DNA of 64,000 bases, taken from Endozoicomonas elysicola (lineage in GTDB: Bacteria > Pseudomonadota > Gammaproteobacteria > Pseudomonadales > Endozoicomonadaceae). The DNA lies in assembly GCF_000710775.1 (NCBI RefSeq), contig NZ_JOJP01000001.1:5485471-5549470 (forward strand), read 5' to 3'. Both the position numbers and the translations under genes were made by a program. Position 1 is the stretch's first letter. Each line of letters begins with the position of its first letter. This document shows positions 55,456 to 64,000 of the stretch, one piece after another. The notes below the pieces were generated by a model, which ran no database searches, had not been told where the DNA came from, and was given only the letters and a program-made list of their open reading frames with translations.

Positions 55456-55617
55456 AGTGATCAAAATCAGGAAATTGTGAATCTTTAGATTATCTTCAGT
55501 TTTGATAAAAACAAGCAATGCAAAAGTATTTAGTATGAAGATCAATTCATTATTTCTTATTTTAATATGGAGTTCATTGTTATGAACTCCATATTTATAG
55601 TTGTAGATAGGTAGGTC

Positions 55618-55983
55618 TCAGTTAATGTGTAAACCATTATTACTTGCTATCTTCACCCTGCAATCGTAAGCATTGGCCATCATAGTGACCGAACTCAAAA
55701 AACCAAATGGCCTATACAGGTAAAGAGTATCCGCTCCCATATCCACAGCCTTTATACTCATCTGATTGATAGTACCCCAAACCATATCCCGATCACTGTG
55801 CAGCCAGTAATCGTAAAAATGCCCTTCTGAGCCATAAACCGTACCTTTAAGTTCACAGCCTTCAATACGATCCGTTTCGTCCCAGACAACCTGAACTTTT
55901 CCGGACTCTTCCGTTGGAAAGGTAATGCAGCCCGTCAGGCTCAACGACACCATCAGCCCAAGAAGGCACTTCTTAACAATCAT
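55618..55983 (-). CDS. DUF4156-family lipoprotein
   Basis: A 121-aa lipoprotein: MIVKKCLLGLMVSLSLTGC with lipobox LTGC, then a small domain with VQVVWDETDRIEGCELKG, GSEGHFYDYW and AVDMGADTLYL, wording typical of the DUF4156 (YjeI-like) family. The frame begins with a TTG at 55995; the ATG at 55983 gives a normal signal. Function unknown. Confidence 0.68.
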   Translation of the reverse strand: MIVKKCLLGLMVSLSLTGCITFPTEESGKVQVVWDETDRIEGCELKGTVYGSEGHFYDYWLHSDRDMVWGTINQMSIKAVDMGADTLYLYRPFGFLSSVTMMANAYDCRVKIASNNGLHIN

Positions 55984-56089
55984 AAGGGTTATCAATCAGA
56001 TGAGAAATGTCGGCAGTATAAGGAAAAGCAGTAATAAGAGAATAAGTGAAAATCACCCAAACCATCTGAGCAAGAGTAAGGTGTATTGC

Positions 56090-56116
56090 AAAAAATAATG
56101 CCCCGACTGGCGGGGC
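56090..56116 (-). terminator. Minus-strand terminator
   Basis: GCCCCG, a 5-nt loop and CGGGGC, followed on the minus strand by ATTATTTTTT. It is 8 nt after the TGA of a short minus-strand frame and upstream of the DUF4156 gene. Confidence 0.72.
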
Positions 56117-56123
56117 TATAATC

Positions 56124-56246
56124 TCAGTACTTCCTCGTTGTTGTTATTATTTCCTTGGGGTGGCCATCCTTGGCCTGTACTTCCTTCCTGGAACCGGTAC
56201 TGAGTTGTTTCCTTTCAACGTTATATATCCACTTTGCATGCCAACT
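56124..56246 (-). pseudogene. Short minus-strand frame ending at a terminator; possible gene remnant
   Basis: A 40-codon frame without ATG ends with TGA 8 nt before a good terminator. Its translation is protein-like (VERKQLSTGSRKEVQAKDG, Lys/Thr-rich end). A second frame with an ATG at 56239 codes 30 residues and ends TAA TAA. Either a tiny gene or the remains of one would explain the terminator; no family recognised. Confidence 0.2.
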
Positions 56247-56438
56247 CTATCTATTCTCTTGACTACCAATGGCTGGAAGAAAAATCACAAATTTACAAAA
56301 TCTATATATTTGGGTATTTGTTACTCGCTACTGTCACCAAGAGAAACAAATAAACAGAGAGTGCTATCTTAATAGCGACCTTTTTAACGAAATCCTTTAG
56401 AAACTTTCTAACTGGCAGCTATACAAAAGGTATTTTTA

Positions 56439-56675
56439 ATGGAAAAAATGTTCGAGCGCTTGCAGTTCGGCTCATGTGAAATATGTGGTTTAGCTCAGCT
56501 ACCCGAAGAATTATCCTGTCTCATGGTACCGCTAGATGCCAAAAGAGTCCGTTTTTTTACCTTATTTTATTGTTCTGATAATCCACTCTGCCACAATAAA
56601 GCCCTTGATAGACTGTCAGAAAAGGAACGACAAGCTCAACATCAAAATACCCCGGTGTTCTTTGGAAAGATTTAG
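56439..56675 (+). CDS. Small cysteine-containing protein of unknown function
   Basis: A 78-aa protein preceded by AAAAGG at 9 nt. It contains a CEIC pair and a YCSDNPLCHNKALDRL segment, which could form a zinc site (four cysteines and a histidine). No family recognised. The upstream gap 55984-56438 holds only the terminator and short frames noted separately. Confidence 0.55.
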   Translation: MEKMFERLQFGSCEICGLAQLPEELSCLMVPLDAKRVRFFTLFYCSDNPLCHNKALDRLSEKERQAQHQNTPVFFGKI

Positions 56676-56695
56676 TTCAGTTATCCCCATAACAC

Positions 56696-57976
56696 TTATG
56701 TATCTGTTGCCGTAAACCGTATTGATTCCGATAAAGGCCCCATTAAATACCCCAGTAATGTCCGCTTTCCTGCCAAGATGTTTAGCTCAACAGTCATTCC
56801 CGGTATCAACTGACTGTTTTCATCAAAACCCGAACTTTCTGTTTCTATCATTGCCTTGTAATAGTGCTTCGCAGTGACATCATCCTTATAGGTATCCGCG
56901 CTGACTTCCAGAACCTTACCTTTAAGAGAGCCATAGGTCGTGTAATCGTAGGCAGACACACGAACATTAACCTCCTGCCCCGGCCAGACTTTCGCTCGAT
57001 CATAAGGAGCCACCATCGCCTCTACCATCAGTGGAACACCATCTGGAACAATTTCAGCCAGTACTGCACCTGGCGGCACCACTTCACCAATAGTATTAAC
57101 GTGCAGAGTATGCAGGGTGCCGGTAACAGGAGCCGCTACTTTTTCACGAACTTCCCTTTCCCGAGAGGAACGAATCTGCTCCTGAATCTGGGCTATTTCC
57201 AAGCGTATTTTGTTGTAATCATGCTGCGCTTCTTCACGAAAATCATTAACCAGCTTGGTTTTCTTCAGTTGTAACTCAGACAGACGGGCATCAATCACTG
57301 GAATCTGCTTCATCGACTGGTTAATTCGGGTTTCGATCTTCAGCAGCACCATCTTTTTTTCCAGCTGATTCTGAACTGAACCTGCTCCTTTACGCAAAAG
57401 AGTCGAGAGGATATCCAGTTGCTTCTGGGCAACTGCTCGCTCGTTGTTCATATCGTTGATTACCTGACCAAGCTCTGAAAGCTGGGCTTCTTCTTTATTG
57501 ATCTGCTGACGAACAATGGATATCTGCCCATTCAACTTTTTAATACGCTTTTTATGCAGTTCCAACTCATTGAGGTAGTATTCGTCATTCAGCGATATCT
57601 GCTCAATGGAAGCGGTGAGGTCTTCTCCGGTCATTTCCGCATACAGCCGTTGTGCCTTTGCAACCAAGCCTCTGAGCTTCTGCTTCAGAATACTGATGTT
57701 TTCGGTCAGGGTAGGATTCATTACTGAAAACAACACCATATCCTTGCTGACACGCTGCCCTTCTGTAACGTGTAACCCCGTGAGAATGCCACCTTCCAGG
57801 TGCTCAACGACCCGGTTATTACTGAATGTTGTCACTCGCCCATCACTCTTAACCACGACATCGATTTCAACAACGGCAGACCAGATCAGAAAGAACAACA
57901 CGATAAAGCTGATTGTAAAAATAATGGAGTAGCGGGTGAATAATCGATATTGCATACGGTTCAGCAGTGGTTTCAT
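56696..57976 (-). CDS. HlyD-family membrane fusion protein of a type I secretion system (SiiD/LapC-like)
   Basis: Periplasmic adaptor of 426 aa linking the ABC ATPase to TolC. One N-terminal membrane helix (about residues 16-36), EHLEGGILTGLHVTEGQRV as first lipoyl half, a long coiled coil (about 75-275), the second lipoyl half (KVAAPVTGTLHTLHVNTIG) and a beta-barrel with the C-terminal PGMTVELNILAGKRTLLGYL, typical of HlyD. It overlaps the SiiA-like gene by 4 nt, so the two are coupled. Confidence 0.88.
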   Translation of the reverse strand: MKPLLNRMQYRLFTRYSIIFTISFIVLFFLIWSAVVEIDVVVKSDGRVTTFSNNRVVEHLEGGILTGLHVTEGQRVSKDMVLFSVMNPTLTENISILKQKLRGLVAKAQRLYAEMTGEDLTASIEQISLNDEYYLNELELHKKRIKKLNGQISIVRQQINKEEAQLSELGQVINDMNNERAVAQKQLDILSTLLRKGAGSVQNQLEKKMVLLKIETRINQSMKQIPVIDARLSELQLKKTKLVNDFREEAQHDYNKIRLEIAQIQEQIRSSREREVREKVAAPVTGTLHTLHVNTIGEVVPPGAVLAEIVPDGVPLMVEAMVAPYDRAKVWPGQEVNVRVSAYDYTTYGSLKGKVLEVSADTYKDDVTAKHYYKAMIETESSGFDENSQLIPGMTVELNILAGKRTLLGYLMGPLSESIRFTATDT

Positions 57977-58581
57977 GACTCTTTCTCCACTACTTTGATG
58001 ATGACTTCATTACGCTGGTCAGTTCCGGAATCATCCAGTCTGATTTTAATATTCTCTGAAGGGATACCTAGCTTGGTCATAATGGCCCGAACCAGTGTTA
58101 TTCGACTGAAAGAAACTTCATAGGTAACCGTTTTGGCAATTCCGGGATCATTAAGCAGGCTGATAATGTAAATCGTCTTATCCTGAATACTGTCCAGGTT
58201 TTCTTTCAGCCACTTATCCAGCTCAGCTCTTGCCGTTTCAGCCAGACGGGAATTAAAATCCTGATACTTAATGCGTATCAGTTTATCCTTAACATCTACG
58301 CTGGCTTGACTCTCCAGCTGAACTTCCAATGCTTCAGAAATAATTTCCTTATCAAAATCAGCCTCCACAGAAGCCTGCTGCCCTATATCCAAAGCATCCC
58401 GGGTACCCGCACTCTTTTTATCGGTTTCAATGGCAGATTTGGCGATATCAAATCCCACCTGCACACTCAGTGCCGTGACTACCAGAATCAGTACAACCAC
58501 CAGAAATACGAATACAAGCAGCGTCGTTGACAACGCATCCACAAATCCAGGCCATGGGTTACTTTCGGGTTGTTTCGCCAT
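57973..58581 (-). CDS. SiiA-like MotB/ExbD-type proton-channel subunit
   Basis: A 202-aa membrane protein with a single N-terminal helix (about residues 17-42) preceded by ESNPWPGFVDALSTTL, where Asp15 is at the position of the essential proton-carrying aspartate of MotB and Salmonella SiiA. A periplasmic domain with peptidoglycan-binding-like OmpA features follows (IYIISLLNDPGIAKTVTYEV, SRITLVRAIMTKLGI). SiiA (about 210 aa) pairs with SiiB to energise export of the giant adhesin SiiE. Here it heads a coupled pair with the HlyD gene. Confidence 0.8.
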   Translation of the reverse strand: MAKQPESNPWPGFVDALSTTLLVFVFLVVVLILVVTALSVQVGFDIAKSAIETDKKSAGTRDALDIGQQASVEADFDKEIISEALEVQLESQASVDVKDKLIRIKYQDFNSRLAETARAELDKWLKENLDSIQDKTIYIISLLNDPGIAKTVTYEVSFSRITLVRAIMTKLGIPSENIKIRLDDSGTDQRNEVIIKVVEKES

Positions 58582-58830
58582 TATGCTCCACCGGCGGATC
58601 AGCAGAATTTGGATTAATGACTACCTGAAGAACCGAGCAGGTCATCAGTACAAGCGTGTCGTCCGAAAAATTGTCTTCTTATTTATCGTCTAACCTCCCT
58701 CCTTCTTGATGAACACTGCATTTTTTGACCACTTATAAAGTGGTGAAACCTCATTACAGTTCTCTCTGTTCAGGCCGATGCAAATTGGGATGATTTCCAG
58801 CATAAAACGGATACAGACGGAACTAACCTT

Positions 58831-60096
58831 ATGAAGCTGAAATGTCTGGTGGGGGTTTCTTCACTACTGTTTCTGGTCCCAACTCATGCACTCACATTGA
58901 CAGAGGCAGTTGAAAGGGCTCTGGAGTTCAATCCGATTGTCAAATCTCTCGGCGCCTCCGTTGATGTGAATAAAGCTCGATTAAGTCAGAGCTATTCTGA
59001 TTACCAACCCTCGATTACCTGGCAAGCTGAAGCTGGCAAAACCCGAAGCACTGGTAATAAGTGGCAGGACAAAACCAAATCCACCGTGATGCTCAACCAG
59101 GTTCTGTACGATTTTGGCCGTATTTCCAATACCGTCGACTCCAGAAAGCACAAGCTGACCGCCGCAGAGCATACGTTCAGTGACGGAAGTGAGAAGCTTG
59201 CACTGATTACGACCAAAGCTTATCTGGAAATTCTCAAGCTTGAAGAAGTTATTGACTTTATTGAAGAGAACATCGCCTTTTATAAGCGTTTCCTGGGTAT
59301 TCTTGAAACCAGAAATGAAGCAGGCGCAGCCAGTAAGTCTGATGTTCAGCGCCTGACCAGTCTGAGCCAGAATGCAGAGCTGGAGCTGATTCAATACAAA
59401 ACCGATCTGACATTTGCCAGAAAGACATTTAAAAGCCTCACAGGCATCGAACCTGATAATCTGACCACTCCGGTGCTTGATGGCATTGTGATTGAGCATT
59501 CTCTGGAGCAGCTGGTCGCATTTGCCATTAGCAAGAGCTACCAGATCCAGGCGCTGAAGGCCAACATCAATTCTGCTGAAGAGAACAGAGACAAAGCTAA
59601 ATCAGACCTTTATCCATCATTCGGTATCAAACTCGAAACCAGCAGGGAACACTCCCTCGACACATCAGAAACCTGGAAGACCACAGAATCGGGTTTAGTA
59701 ACCATGACCTATAAGCTCTGGGATGGTTTTAAAACCCGCCGTAAAGTGGATGAAAGTAATGCCAGAGTGATGCAAGCAGAGTATCGCCTGCGGGAAGCGG
59801 CATTAACTCTGGAAAAAAAAGTAGAGGAAGCCTACAGCTCAACTTTAAAGCTGATGGATGAAAAGGTCGTGAATGACCGAGCGATGGAAACCAACCGGGA
59901 AATCGTTGACCTCTATTACAAAGAGTTTGAATTGGGTGAAAAAACATTGCTGGACATAACCACTGCCCAAGGCGATTACCACATCAGTCGAATTCAAAGC
60001 GCTGTATTCCAGTATGACTTTTACAAGAGCGTATTAGACATCCGTTTTTATCTGAATGATGTCATCAATACGATTCGAAGTTTGCAGGATAGCTAA
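58831..60096 (+). CDS. TolC-family outer-membrane channel of type I secretion (SiiC-like)
   Basis: Outer-membrane efflux protein of 421 aa. Signal peptide (cleavage near THA-LTL at residue 20), then the duplicated helical/strand TolC pattern: LTEAVERALEFNP, LNQVLYDFGRI, ETRNEAGAASKSDVQRL and a second half with TYKLWDGFKTRRKV and FELGEKTLLDITTAQGDY. It is divergent from the siiA-hlyD pair, the 249-nt gap holding both promoters, and is followed by the SiiB-like gene. Confidence 0.88.
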   Translation: MKLKCLVGVSSLLFLVPTHALTLTEAVERALEFNPIVKSLGASVDVNKARLSQSYSDYQPSITWQAEAGKTRSTGNKWQDKTKSTVMLNQVLYDFGRISNTVDSRKHKLTAAEHTFSDGSEKLALITTKAYLEILKLEEVIDFIEENIAFYKRFLGILETRNEAGAASKSDVQRLTSLSQNAELELIQYKTDLTFARKTFKSLTGIEPDNLTTPVLDGIVIEHSLEQLVAFAISKSYQIQALKANINSAEENRDKAKSDLYPSFGIKLETSREHSLDTSETWKTTESGLVTMTYKLWDGFKTRRKVDESNARVMQAEYRLREAALTLEKKVEEAYSSTLKLMDEKVVNDRAMETNREIVDLYYKEFELGEKTLLDITTAQGDYHISRIQSAVFQYDFYKSVLDIRFYLNDVINTIRSLQDS

Positions 60097-60158
60097 AGCC
60101 TTCTGAACCCAAGCTTACTCTGGATTAGAGAAAAGCAGACAAAAAGGTAAACAGGGAC

Positions 60159-61601
60159 ATGTCTGAGCTGCATATTGCCGACCCGAAGAGGATCGTTGGC
60201 TTTCTAAAAAAGATGAGCTGTGTTGTTGTTGCTACTGTAGCACTGGTTTACTTCACCCGGGATTTCTTTGGTCCAGCCCTGATGTCCAACCTGCCACTGA
60301 ACGGCACCATCTTGTTTGTTTTTATCCTTGGATCTTTTCTCTGCTTTCTCTATGTTACTCATCTGAAAGATGATGTATTGGTTATATCCAGCCTAGATGA
60401 CATCCTTTTTGGGGATGAAGAGAGTCAGCCACCCAAGCTGAAAATGCACCTGATGTCGACAACCGTTGTTCTGCTCAGAAACAACGTTGCCTCATTGGGC
60501 CTGATCAAACTCTCTGCACCAGCGACCAGAGCACTGATCGACTCTCTTCAAGACAGCCTTGATGAAAAGATTGCCTTTATTCGTTACTTCACAGACTTAC
60601 TGGTTTTTATCGGACTGCTCGGTACCTTCCTCGGTCTGACCATTACCATCGGTTCCATCGGTGGTATCCTGGCGGACCTGGCTCAGGGCCTAGGTGGTGA
60701 TGTTGATATTATGACCACTCTGGTAAAGCTCATCAAAGGTCTTGAAGGCCCTCTCGGTGGTATGAGTACTGCGTTCGGATCATCGTTGATGGGGCTGAGT
60801 ACTTCCCTAGTATTGGGCATTCTTCAACTCAACCTAAATAAAGCCAGCAGCTACTTCTCTTCAGCTATGGAAAACTGGCTTGCCCAGCATACTGTTGAGC
60901 ACCTCGCCGGTGGTGGAATGAGTGTTGGTGGTTCACAGACTATAAGCACTGCCCAAGCACCAGTCATTGATAACAGTCAGTTAAGTCAGATCAATCAGCA
61001 GCTGGGTAATATATCCACTATTTTGAAAGGCATTGCAGAGAATGGCTCTATCGGTGAAAAACAATGGACAACACTGACGGATCTGATCAGCAGCAACCAT
61101 AAAGAAATGATCGAGCACACATCCCTGATCACTGGTTCCGTAAAACAGGCAGGGGAGCACATCGAAAATGTAGCCGAGCTTCAGTCTGGCCAATTAGCAG
61201 AGACAGAATTACAGCGCAAAGAAACTGAAAAAATCCGCCAGTTATTCACTACACAGACCGATGCCAGTATCGAAGCGCTTGGAGCAGTTCAGGAAAGCAA
61301 GCACCGTCTGGTTCAAATTGTCACAGCATTGCTTAATGAGCAGAAAACGCTTCATCAAAGCCAACTGAAGACCAGTGAAGGCATGGCTGGAGTAAAGGAT
61401 ACTCTCAAAGAAAAAATCGTCAGTTCCTCAAAAGAATTCAATGATGTTGCCAGCCAGATAGATGGGTGCTCGGAGCAGTTACAAAGCCTCTCAGAAATTG
61501 TTCAGGAAGAAAACCAGAAAACAGAGAAACGCCAGTCCAGACTGGACAAGCTTTTCAATGCCCTGACTAAGGCAGTCATTGATCTCAAAGATAAAATCTA
61601 A
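60159..61601 (+). CDS. SiiB-like MotA/TolQ/ExbB-type proton-channel subunit
   Basis: A 480-aa inner-membrane protein with helices at about 20-34, 50-67, 146-170 and 200-222. The last two hold the MotA/ExbB core: DLLVFIGLLGTFLGLTITIG and GPLGGMSTAFGSSLMGLSTS. A long predicted coiled coil (about residues 270-480) follows, longer than in ExbB and like SiiB (about 464 aa). Together with the SiiA-like protein it should form a proton-driven motor attached to the type I exporter. Confidence 0.8.
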   Translation: MSELHIADPKRIVGFLKKMSCVVVATVALVYFTRDFFGPALMSNLPLNGTILFVFILGSFLCFLYVTHLKDDVLVISSLDDILFGDEESQPPKLKMHLMSTTVVLLRNNVASLGLIKLSAPATRALIDSLQDSLDEKIAFIRYFTDLLVFIGLLGTFLGLTITIGSIGGILADLAQGLGGDVDIMTTLVKLIKGLEGPLGGMSTAFGSSLMGLSTSLVLGILQLNLNKASSYFSSAMENWLAQHTVEHLAGGGMSVGGSQTISTAQAPVIDNSQLSQINQQLGNISTILKGIAENGSIGEKQWTTLTDLISSNHKEMIEHTSLITGSVKQAGEHIENVAELQSGQLAETELQRKETEKIRQLFTTQTDASIEALGAVQESKHRLVQIVTALLNEQKTLHQSQLKTSEGMAGVKDTLKEKIVSSSKEFNDVASQIDGCSEQLQSLSEIVQEENQKTEKRQSRLDKLFNALTKAVIDLKDKI

Positions 61602-61614
61602 AAGCTGATCATTC

Positions 61615-62601
61615 GTGAAAAGACAACTCCCCCAACTACTCTGGTGTCTTGCGGCATCAGTTGCAGCTGCTGAAAGACCAGAATTTATATTCCCTGTAGA
61701 TTGTGACTATGGCATTGACTGCGTCATTCAGAATTATGTAGATAATGACCCGACAGAGGCATATAGGGAATACCAATGTGGCCAGCAGACCTATGATGGC
61801 CATACCGGGACTGATATCAGAATCATCAATCTGCCTCAAATGAACTCAGGCGTAGCAGTGCTGGCTGCTGCTGATGGAAAAGTCGTTGCAACCCGTGATG
61901 GGGTCGCTGACACATACCTTGATCGTAAGAAACGTGATGAAATCAGTAAAACCGGGCTTGGAAATGCGGTAGTTATTGAGCACCCAAATGGCTGGAGAAC
62001 TATTTACGGACACCTCAAAGAAGGTAGCCTGATGGTTCAAAAGGGGGACATTGTCACCAGCGAACAAAAGCTGGGAGACATTGGCCTGTCAGGTTTAACC
62101 GAGTTCCCTCATGTCCATTTTCAAGTTCAATACCTTGGACAAACAACAGATCCCTTTACCGGAATACAGCGATTCTCCGTATGTGGAGATAACACTGACA
62201 ACCTCTGGAGTATGGATGCTTTCAAGCAGGTAACCTATGAACCTGGTTTTTTACTGGATCATGGGTTCAATGACCAACCACCTGCAAATTATAAGGATAT
62301 AGAAAGCGGTGAGTTTAATAACGGTATTGATGAAGGCAGCGATCACCTGTTCTTTTGGGTAAGACTCATTGGACTAGCAGCAGGCTCTCAAATAACCCTG
62401 AACATCACGTCACCAGATAACGAAACGGTAAAGTCCAAAACATTTGATAAACTCAAAACAAGTAAGGCACAAATCTTCTATTACGTAGGGATCAAAAATC
62501 CGGAAGAGCAGTCTGGGAACTGGGTTGGCGAACTGATTTTGAAACAGCCATCACTACCAAAAAGTAGAAAGTCTTTCTCTTATACCAATTCCGCCTTCTA
62601 A
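61615..62601 (+). CDS. Secreted M23-family (LytM) peptidase
   Basis: A 328-aa protein with a signal peptide (cleavage near AAA-ERP at residue 19) and an M23 domain: the HxxxD zinc motif HTGTDIR (His63, Asp67), YGHL (His133) and HxH in FPHVHFQV (His166, His168). All catalytic residues are kept. Residues about 235-312 form a second beta-rich domain (DHLFFWVRLIGLAAGSQITL), unlike typical LytM tails. Start is a GTG 13 nt after the SiiB-like gene. Its last residues YTNSAF and stop come from a MITE end. It may open peptidoglycan for the secretion machine. Confidence 0.82.
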   Translation: MKRQLPQLLWCLAASVAAAERPEFIFPVDCDYGIDCVIQNYVDNDPTEAYREYQCGQQTYDGHTGTDIRIINLPQMNSGVAVLAAADGKVVATRDGVADTYLDRKKRDEISKTGLGNAVVIEHPNGWRTIYGHLKEGSLMVQKGDIVTSEQKLGDIGLSGLTEFPHVHFQVQYLGQTTDPFTGIQRFSVCGDNTDNLWSMDAFKQVTYEPGFLLDHGFNDQPPANYKDIESGEFNNGIDEGSDHLFFWVRLIGLAAGSQITLNITSPDNETVKSKTFDKLKTSKAQIFYYVGIKNPEEQSGNWVGELILKQPSLPKSRKSFSYTNSAF

Positions 62602-62744
62602 ATATGATATCGAGCAAACTATTATGGACTGCTGGGCGAGGCGGAATGACGAGTAATAGCAGGGCTATTGCGAGGAATTCCAACGAAGAGCCAGCTGTTC
62701 AGAATAACTGCGCAGTTCATGTTTAGAAGGTGGAATTTGTATTA
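62580..62744. repeat. MITE-like element, 165 bp, between M23 and ABC genes
   Basis: The 28-nt ends are inverted repeats identical at 24 positions, beginning T(T/A)ATAC(C/A)AATTCC and carrying CCTTCTAAA. The left end encodes the last six residues and stop of the M23 gene; the right end supplies the TAA of the ABC gene (62742-62744). Its interior has no gene. The terminal sequence resembles the element at 45156. Confidence 0.72.
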
Positions 62745-64000
62745 CATCGTCGATGCTGCAGAAGATTGAGAGAGTTCGTCTAAAACACGGTTTCGGCTGT
62801 CATCAGCAATGATGCGCCCTTCTGCCATCACAATAATCCGATCCACCAGCTGTAGCAGATTCATCCGATGTGTGATGAGAATCAGGGTTTGGTTCTCTTG
62901 CATCATACCGGGCAAGCGCTCACAAAAGAGTGTTTCAGTGTAATTATCATAGGCGCTGGTTGGCTCATCCAGAATAGTAAGTCGACTTCGTCGCAGAAGA
63001 GCTCGGGCCAGACAAAGCGCTTGCCGCTGGCCACCGGAAAGATTTTCCCCACGCTCAAGCACTCGATGAGCATACCCGCGGGAACACTGACGTACAAAGC
63101 TATCGATGCCTGCAACATGACAAGCCTCATCCAAACGTTCCGTGGATACAGAGCTTTTACCAAGCATCAGGTTGCTTTTCAGCGTACCGCTGAATACTGA
63201 TGGTTTTTGTGGTGCAATAGCGCAGTGGCTTCGATAATGGTCCAGATTCAAATGACACAGATTCTGCCCATCAATCAGAATATTACCTTCTGAGGGCTCA
63301 ACCAGTCCCTGAAGCATTCGGATCAACGTACTCTTACCAGAACCTGAGGCACCCAGTATGGCAACACGCTCTCCCGGCTCGATCTTAAGGTTAATATCCT
63401 TAAGAACCTCAGACTCAGAAGCAGAGTAGCGATAAGAGACCTTGTCAAATTCTATAAAGCCTCTAAGGGTGGGTACATTTATCTTGTCGTGGCCATCATC
63501 TTCACCAGACAGGCCAAGTAACTCATTAATCTCTCGCAGTGATTTCAGGGAGAAGCTCAACCGGTTAACAGCCATGGCCAGATTCATCAATGGCGCAATG
63601 GCTCGGCTACCCAGAATAATGCAGGCAAATAGTGAGCCTGGGGAAATATTGCCACTATGAATTTGATAAACTCCAAGAACCAGCATTCCAATCACAACGC
63701 ATTGAGTCGCACTGGCTACAACCGTATTGAGTAAAACATTCGACTGCTTACTCATTAATGAAGCGCTGGCCGAGTTAGTCACCAGCCCTCGCCAGCGAGC
63801 CAGGGCTTTGCGTCCTGCTCCCAGTGTTTTAATAGCCTCCAGTTCTGAGCTGACTTCATAGAGGAAAGTGCTCTTCGCATTATTCACCTTGGTCAGTTGA
63901 TTTGCCTGCTCACGCGAACGCCGATAGCTGAAGATCGTGATGGGTATCAGGCAGGCAGCAATGACCAATGGAACCATCACCATTACTCCACCAATCAAAC
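62742..64000 (-). CDS. Type I secretion ABC transporter (SiiF/LapB-like), N-terminus beyond window
   Basis: C-terminal 418 residues of an ABC exporter fused to its membrane domain. Part of the membrane domain is visible (to about residue 150 of the fragment), then the ATPase: FDKVSYRY, Walker A GASGSGKST, Q-loop IAPQKPSVFSGTL, signature LSGGQRQAL, Walker B LTILDEPTSAYD and switch His in LITHRMNLLQLVDRII. LapB/SiiF exporters move large RTX-type adhesins; the diagnostic N-terminal C39-like domain lies outside the window. It runs convergent to the M23 gene, with a MITE between. Confidence 0.88.
   Translation of the reverse strand, partial: LIGGVMVMVPLVIAACLIPITIFSYRRSREQANQLTKVNNAKSTFLYEVSSELEAIKTLGAGRKALARWRGLVTNSASASLMSKQSNVLLNTVVASATQCVVIGMLVLGVYQIHSGNISPGSLFACIILGSRAIAPLMNLAMAVNRLSFSLKSLREINELLGLSGEDDGHDKINVPTLRGFIEFDKVSYRYSASESEVLKDINLKIEPGERVAILGASGSGKSTLIRMLQGLVEPSEGNILIDGQNLCHLNLDHYRSHCAIAPQKPSVFSGTLKSNLMLGKSSVSTERLDEACHVAGIDSFVRQCSRGYAHRVLERGENLSGGQRQALCLARALLRRSRLTILDEPTSAYDNYTETLFCERLPGMMQENQTLILITHRMNLLQLVDRIIVMAEGRIIADDSRNRVLDELSQSSAASTM

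Follow-up and report, generated by a model that had tools for sequence, protein, structure and literature searches.

A candidate SiiAB-type, motor-assisted type I secretion locus with a giant RTX gene in Endozoicomonas elysicola

Why do genes for a MotA/MotB-type protein pair lie among those of a type I secretion system (T1SS) in Endozoicomonas elysicola, and what might such a pair do there? The locus ends a 64,000-base stretch of DNA (here called the window; bases 5485471-5549470 of a 5,569,560-base contig in a genome assembled as two contigs), and the initial annotation had likened it to the siiA-F genes of Salmonella pathogenicity island 4 (SPI-4). It probably represents a SiiAB-type, motor-assisted T1SS for one giant RTX protein, with the MotA/MotB-type pair governing retention or release of that protein. 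In the listed titles and abstract openings and the passages seen from the literature, motor-linked T1SSs were described from Salmonella only, and none of those titles and abstract openings mentioned a SiiAB-type T1SS for Endozoicomonadaceae.

Results

Six genes in three transcription units

All six open reading frames (ORFs) of the initial annotation were present. On the minus strand, a gene for a SiiA/MotB-like stator protein (57973..58581) is followed by one for an HlyD-family periplasmic adaptor in the SiiD position (56696..57976), the start of which overlaps the MotB-like stop by 4 bases. The plus strand carries genes for a TolC-family outer membrane channel in the SiiC position (58831..60096), a SiiB/MotA-like protein (60159..61601), and, beginning 13 bases after the latter, an M23 peptidase (61615..62601). 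These two units diverge from a 249-base intergenic region (58582..58830), as had been proposed; to them must be added a third, in which the giant RTX gene precedes the gene for an LssB-like type I secretion permease/ATPase (ABC) in the SiiF position (62742..64000, minus strand, extending past the window end). This third unit converges with the TolC/MotA-like/M23 unit. As a correction to the initial annotation, the start of the ABC gene was found 844 bases beyond position 64000, and the complete gene encodes 700 amino acids (aa).

TIGRFAM and Pfam matches bore out the identities assigned to four of the proteins. HlyD matched TIGR01843 (306 bits, above the cut-off of 208.65), the TolC-family protein matched Pfam OEP (E 2.2e-51) and, below the cut-off of 225, TIGR01844 (203 bits), and the M23 (LytM) peptidase matched PF01551 above the cut-off (E 1.2e-18). 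The complete ABC protein, including the part encoded past the window, matched TIGR03375 over positions 3-695 of 696 with 615 bits, short of the cut-off of 693.1. The same six genes occur in the same arrangement in E. cretensis (record OODV01000369.1 'Endozoicomonas cretensis') and Kistimonas asteriae, with protein identities of 60-95%. The ratio of nonsynonymous to synonymous substitution rates (dN/dS) between the window and E. cretensis was 0.014-0.087 across the six genes, at dS values near saturation (1.2-2.3). Because of this synteny in two relatives and the low dN/dS, chance or misannotation was ruled out as the source of the six-gene set.

The MotA/MotB-type pair

The presence of a MotA/MotB-type pair among the T1SS genes was upheld, the two proteins being recognized by architecture and by distant profile matches. 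The MotB-like ORF matched no Pfam family above the cut-off. Its product has a transmembrane (TM) helix with D15 inside the motif NPWPGFVD, a low-confidence linker (residues 43-98), and an OmpA-like domain (residues 99-202), i.e., the layout of SiiA (TM helix, disordered linker, and OmpA-like peptidoglycan-binding domain). The predicted fold of the domain matches the SiiA structure 6qvp, on a par with generic OmpA and Pal domains. Two arginines, R160 and R165, are invariant in 11/11 MotB-like proteins, and their spacing equals that of Arg162 and Arg167 of SiiA, both of which are needed for peptidoglycan binding. In sequence comparisons, 6qvp was absent among the matches listed in two profile searches of PDB sequences (A3 and A7), as was SiiA among those listed in searches with two single MotB-like sequences.

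The MotA-like protein has four hydrophobic regions with the conserved motifs GLLGTFLGLT and PLGGMSTAFGSSLMGLS, followed by a tail of some 210 aa made of heptad repeats; the heptad-like period of the tail is 3.54, with a strength reached by 0/2000 shuffles. No Pfam family matched this ORF up to E 0.1. A profile search of PDB sequences listed 27 matches, the strongest with E 0.019; every one fell at profile positions 237-477, within the tail, and we took them as coiled-coil noise. The closest large sequence family is the widespread pair of a MotA/TolQ/ExbB-type protein with a PRK09039-type peptidoglycan-binding protein (e.g., on Sinorhizobium pSymB). This pair resembles the window pair in its neighboring MotB-type partner but differs in the larger size of that partner and in that no T1SS was seen in its flanks; the PRK09039 NCBIfam score was 33.1 bits, well below the cut-off of 305.

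The giant RTX gene

The initial annotation had suggested that a giant adhesin gene, with Ig-like or cadherin repeats, might lie past position 64000. A very large repeat-protein gene is indeed adjacent, 43 bases upstream of the ABC gene on the same strand and outside the window, but it is of the RTX type. Its ORF is open for 6400 aa up to the contig end, and an N-terminal RTX piece of 1944 aa with a start codon stands at the beginning of the same contig. Since the two pieces align to residues 2465-8862 and 1-1944, respectively, of one intact E. cretensis orthologue, the contig break falls within the giant gene. About 520 aa are unaccounted for relative to the orthologue, being either missing from the assembly or deleted; the contig ends show no exact overlap of 20-2999 bases and no in-frame abutment. 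The second contig contains 1 GGxGxD match in six frames, whereas a single 9.6-kb stretch of the RTX gene contains 75.

Across the 8344 aa available, Pfam detected no family other than the RTX repeats of PF00353, with 24, 45, and 51 matching stretches across three pieces, and the first 420 aa matched no Pfam or NCBIfam family up to E 0.01. Counted from a chosen start codon, the intact orthologues comprise 8862 aa (870 kDa) in E. cretensis and 8883 aa (868 kDa) in K. asteriae. Both have a pI of 4.05 and zero cysteine, with 185 and 195 GGxGxD motifs, respectively, and 66 and 68 matches to an RTX unit motif at a median spacing of 101 aa. A nonrepeat N terminus of about 400 aa and the C-terminal end are common to the RTX proteins of the three genomes compared. 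The RTX protein is the probable substrate of the exporter, as the adjacency and conserved linkage of its gene suggest, and by analogy with T1SS giants in general it may be adhesive.

Distribution of the locus

We searched 56 genomes (own included) with the MotA-like protein and retrieved the neighborhoods of all matches. Matches occurred in 15 genomes, and a T1SS block surrounds the MotA-like gene in 11 genomes of the family (window included) and in G037 of the same order. ZorA proteins were also among the matches (second loci in G037 and G034, plus G041; L049, L050, and L051), and G039 and G052 carry MotA-like genes with no T1SS nearby. A census of 37 family genomes with the MotB-like profile yielded 13 matches, including two new genomes, G792 and G793, which carry the same block; in G004 the block is divided between two contigs.

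The T1SS-linked loci of the family fall into two clades. The clade with the M23 gene contains the window, G008, G018, G028, G025, G021, and G022, the last with about 16 kb between the ABC/RTX unit and the rest. The M23-less clade contains G034, G011, G004, and G006, to which G792 and G793 were assigned by gene content, outside the tree; the RTX portion of G793 is fragmented. Two M23-less loci hold an additional gene: that of G011 (L043:2237-8674; 2146 aa, with cadherin-like and RTX domains) lies between the MotB-like and TolC genes, and a similar-looking gene occurs in G004 (L044:13045 onward). These extra genes of approximately 2.1-2.5 kaa possibly encode a second substrate.

The M23 residues H63, D67, H133, H166, and H168 are invariant in 7/7 copies (alignment A8), leaving intact the H..D and HxH motif of the M23 metal site. 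Long-form M23 genes (>200 bits) were found in 8/37 family genomes, 7 of which also have the MotB-like gene; the eighth is G031.

Wider searches covered 370 genomes of the class with the MotB-like profile (31 matched, own included; own 298 bits, next best 39.6) and 397 genomes of the phylum with the MotA-like profile (164 matched, own included; own 686 bits, next best 206). Among 59 loci from these searches (L059-L117), inspected in short flanks of about 1.5 kb, the window's own was alone in having an HlyD, TolC, RTX, or strong ABC match. Beyond the family, both G037 and an Arcobacter plasmid were found to carry the arrangement, in agreement with its predicted occurrence outside enterobacteria. 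The plasmid locus (CP146529.1, 65957-90166; L057) comprises a 25.7-kb gene followed by ABC, HlyD, MotA-like, MotB-like (NPWPSFVD), and TolC genes, and also carries an EAL-domain gene.

A Providencia rettgeri plasmid (NZ_CP077318.1, 62497-82652; L058) holds a decayed SPI-4-like remnant. It includes a giant gene with an invasin domain, a SiiB-like gene spread over two frames, and a short gene of the TolC family, after which comes an ORF that appears transposase-like by eye; the piece at L058:9532-9999 is MotA-like. No MotB-like match was detected in L058, and tblastn of the MotB-like protein against plasmids gave no match.

Discussion

A proposed role for the motor pair

T1SSs export their substrates C terminus first. 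In the mechanism we favor, ABC, HlyD, and TolC would export the RTX chain of approximately 8.86 kaa with its C terminus leading. The MotB-like protein (one TM helix, Asp15, and a wall-binding OmpA-like domain) would join the MotA-like protein, with its four TM helices and cytoplasmic heptad tail, in a proton-driven, 5:2 stator-like complex that docks on the exporter without powering export. Proton motive force would instead be used to hold or free the conserved nonrepeat N-terminal module of the RTX protein in the TolC/HlyD channel, so that the RTX fibre would be either kept on the surface or shed. The M23 peptidase presumably opens the peptidoglycan, which would make room for assembly of the wall-anchored complex.

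Complex formation, proton flow, docking, and retention or release are all modeled on Salmonella. There, SiiAB is reported to form a proton channel, SiiF to complex with SiiB, and SiiA to bind peptidoglycan, and the way in which SiiAB exploits the proton motive force is described as unclear (PMC12607715); carbonyl cyanide m-chlorophenylhydrazone (CCCP) reduces SiiE retention (PMC6272769); and SiiAB is counted among the pentamer:dimer motors (PMC12204202).

Several observations weigh against this reading. The likeness to SiiA is one of layout and predicted fold. Structure prediction, suggested by the initial annotation for both proteins, gave a SiiA-like fold for the MotB-like protein in a modest model (mean predicted local distance difference test [pLDDT] 59.6, predicted template modeling score 0.47, 3 rows). 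The match to SiiA is unspecific, as 15 rows had a higher Z, most within 1, and the structural end points (98-198 to 109-204), which leave the arginine register unfixed, imply that Arg160 may not occupy the position of SiiA Arg162. The MotA-like model failed (pLDDT 40) and was discarded, so that fold was judged by alignment and hydropathy only. Pfam finds only RTX repeats, and no adhesive domain, in the giant protein. The M23 gene is absent from the retrieved stretches of the other clade. In G031, an M23 gene of the same kind (L165, G031:C99) neighbors an HlyD gene and a giant RTX gene, part of which is masked, and a search of this whole draft genome for both motor proteins found neither. The M23 peptidase and the motor can thus each occur in the absence of the other.

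Alternative explanations

The motor could power or assist export, pulling or threading the chain, instead of controlling its retention. The motor genes do share transcription units with HlyD and TolC, and the six RTX ORFs measured whole in relatives of the M23 clade reach very large sizes, with 6340-8888 aa from stop to stop. However, the M23-less clade keeps the motor with RTX ORFs of only 1459-2250 aa (G034, G011, G004, G006, and G792), and deletion of siiA and siiB in Salmonella leaves SiiE secretion running while lowering invasion (PMC12607715), which makes an export motor unlikely. Another reading, in which a proton-driven rotary motor, mechanically coupled through its cytoplasmic tail and wall-anchored stator to the T1SS channel, works like a winch for one RTX fibre of approximately 0.87 MDa, with a dedicated M23 endopeptidase licensing its placement in the wall and a lineage independent of SPI-4, seems to us quite improbable; if it were true, the fibre would be turned, paid out, or released by the motor.

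Two further explanations were considered. The part list of SPI-4 is shared (i.e., T1SS ABC, HlyD, and TolC genes, a MotA/MotB-type pair, and a giant repeat-protein gene in one locus), and the size, architecture, and predicted fold of the MotB-like protein resemble those of SiiA; to this extent the proposed likeness to siiA-F stands. It does not extend to the siiA to siiF gene order, which the three transcription units of the locus lack, or to the substrate, which in SPI-4 is a non-RTX protein with 53 BIg domains whereas the candidate here carries RTX nonapeptides; the M23 peptidase is also extra to the SPI-4 set. A true orthologue (SiiA, SiiB, SiiC, SiiD, and SiiF proper, with a swapped substrate and spread by horizontal transfer) would fit the Providencia plasmid remnant with its SiiB-like gene, but the deep divergence within Endozoicomonadaceae seen in the tree points to long residence, and we give this origin little probability. 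Still less probable, and hardly credible to us, is a Zorya-like defense system or another envelope motor that merely neighbors the T1SS. ZorA and ZorB likewise combine a MotA-like protein with a long cytoplasmic tail and a wall-binding MotB-like partner (PMC11890865). In PADLOC, the two proteins of the window matched these profiles only (best E values of 4e-6 and 4e-4; 24 and 18 bits), other T1SS-linked MotA-like proteins scored up to 42 bits, and the best PDB sequence match of the MotB-like profile was a MotB-related chain, 8vvn (E 6e-4). These scores are marginal, however: three ZorA proteins scanned in parallel reached 515-755 bits versus 24 for the window MotA-like protein, the tree groups the 11 family rows of the T1SS-linked clade at 100/100 apart from ZorA, and the MotB-like gene adjoins HlyD in 13/13 genomes. 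PADLOC and the tree together led us to reject Zorya membership; ZorC, ZorD, and ZorE were not searched for.

A conserved yet divergent version with another class of cargo separates the needs of the motor itself (an exporter and a large tethered repeat chain) from the peculiarities of SiiE. Natural comparisons are at hand between motors with RTX proteins of 1.5-2.3 and of 6.3-8.9 kaa and between loci with and without M23. The locus is also a candidate for a role in host contact among bacteria associated with marine animals; RTX and adhesin clusters of orthologous groups are enriched in an Endozoicomonadaceae symbiont (PMC8755941).

Other features and related systems

No RNA element was found at the Rfam gathering cut-off in window positions 55500-64000. 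Sigma-70-like sites numbered 5 in 6.7 kb versus a shuffle mean of 9.5, i.e., no usable promoter signal, and none was listed inside the 249-base intergenic region. There were 12 terminator-like sites versus 5.4 in shuffles, none of them between two of the genes.

The LapA/LapBCE-LapDG and BapA-type systems share an LssB-like ABC protein, HlyD, TolC, and a giant repeat protein with the window locus. In the accessible portions of related reports, no mention of MotA, SiiA, or protons was found for an Escherichia coli T1SS/RTX locus (PMC12758282), nor of MotA or protons for BapP (PMC12153261). We rejected Lap-type retention for the RTX protein, and Lap-type release looks unlikely, because its N terminus (first 420 aa; Pfam and NCBIfam) gave no match to a LapA-type retention module and the sole LapG-type (PF06035) match in the genome is at C1:5318620, about 223 kb away; LapD was not searched for. 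The NCBIfam retention-module model detects the genome's own Lap/Bap-like protein weakly (22.7 bits; cut-off 50). A separate Lap/Bap-like T1SS locus of this genome (L142, C1:4446000-4465999) includes an OmpA-family protein gene and a large adhesin-like gene with Ca repeats.

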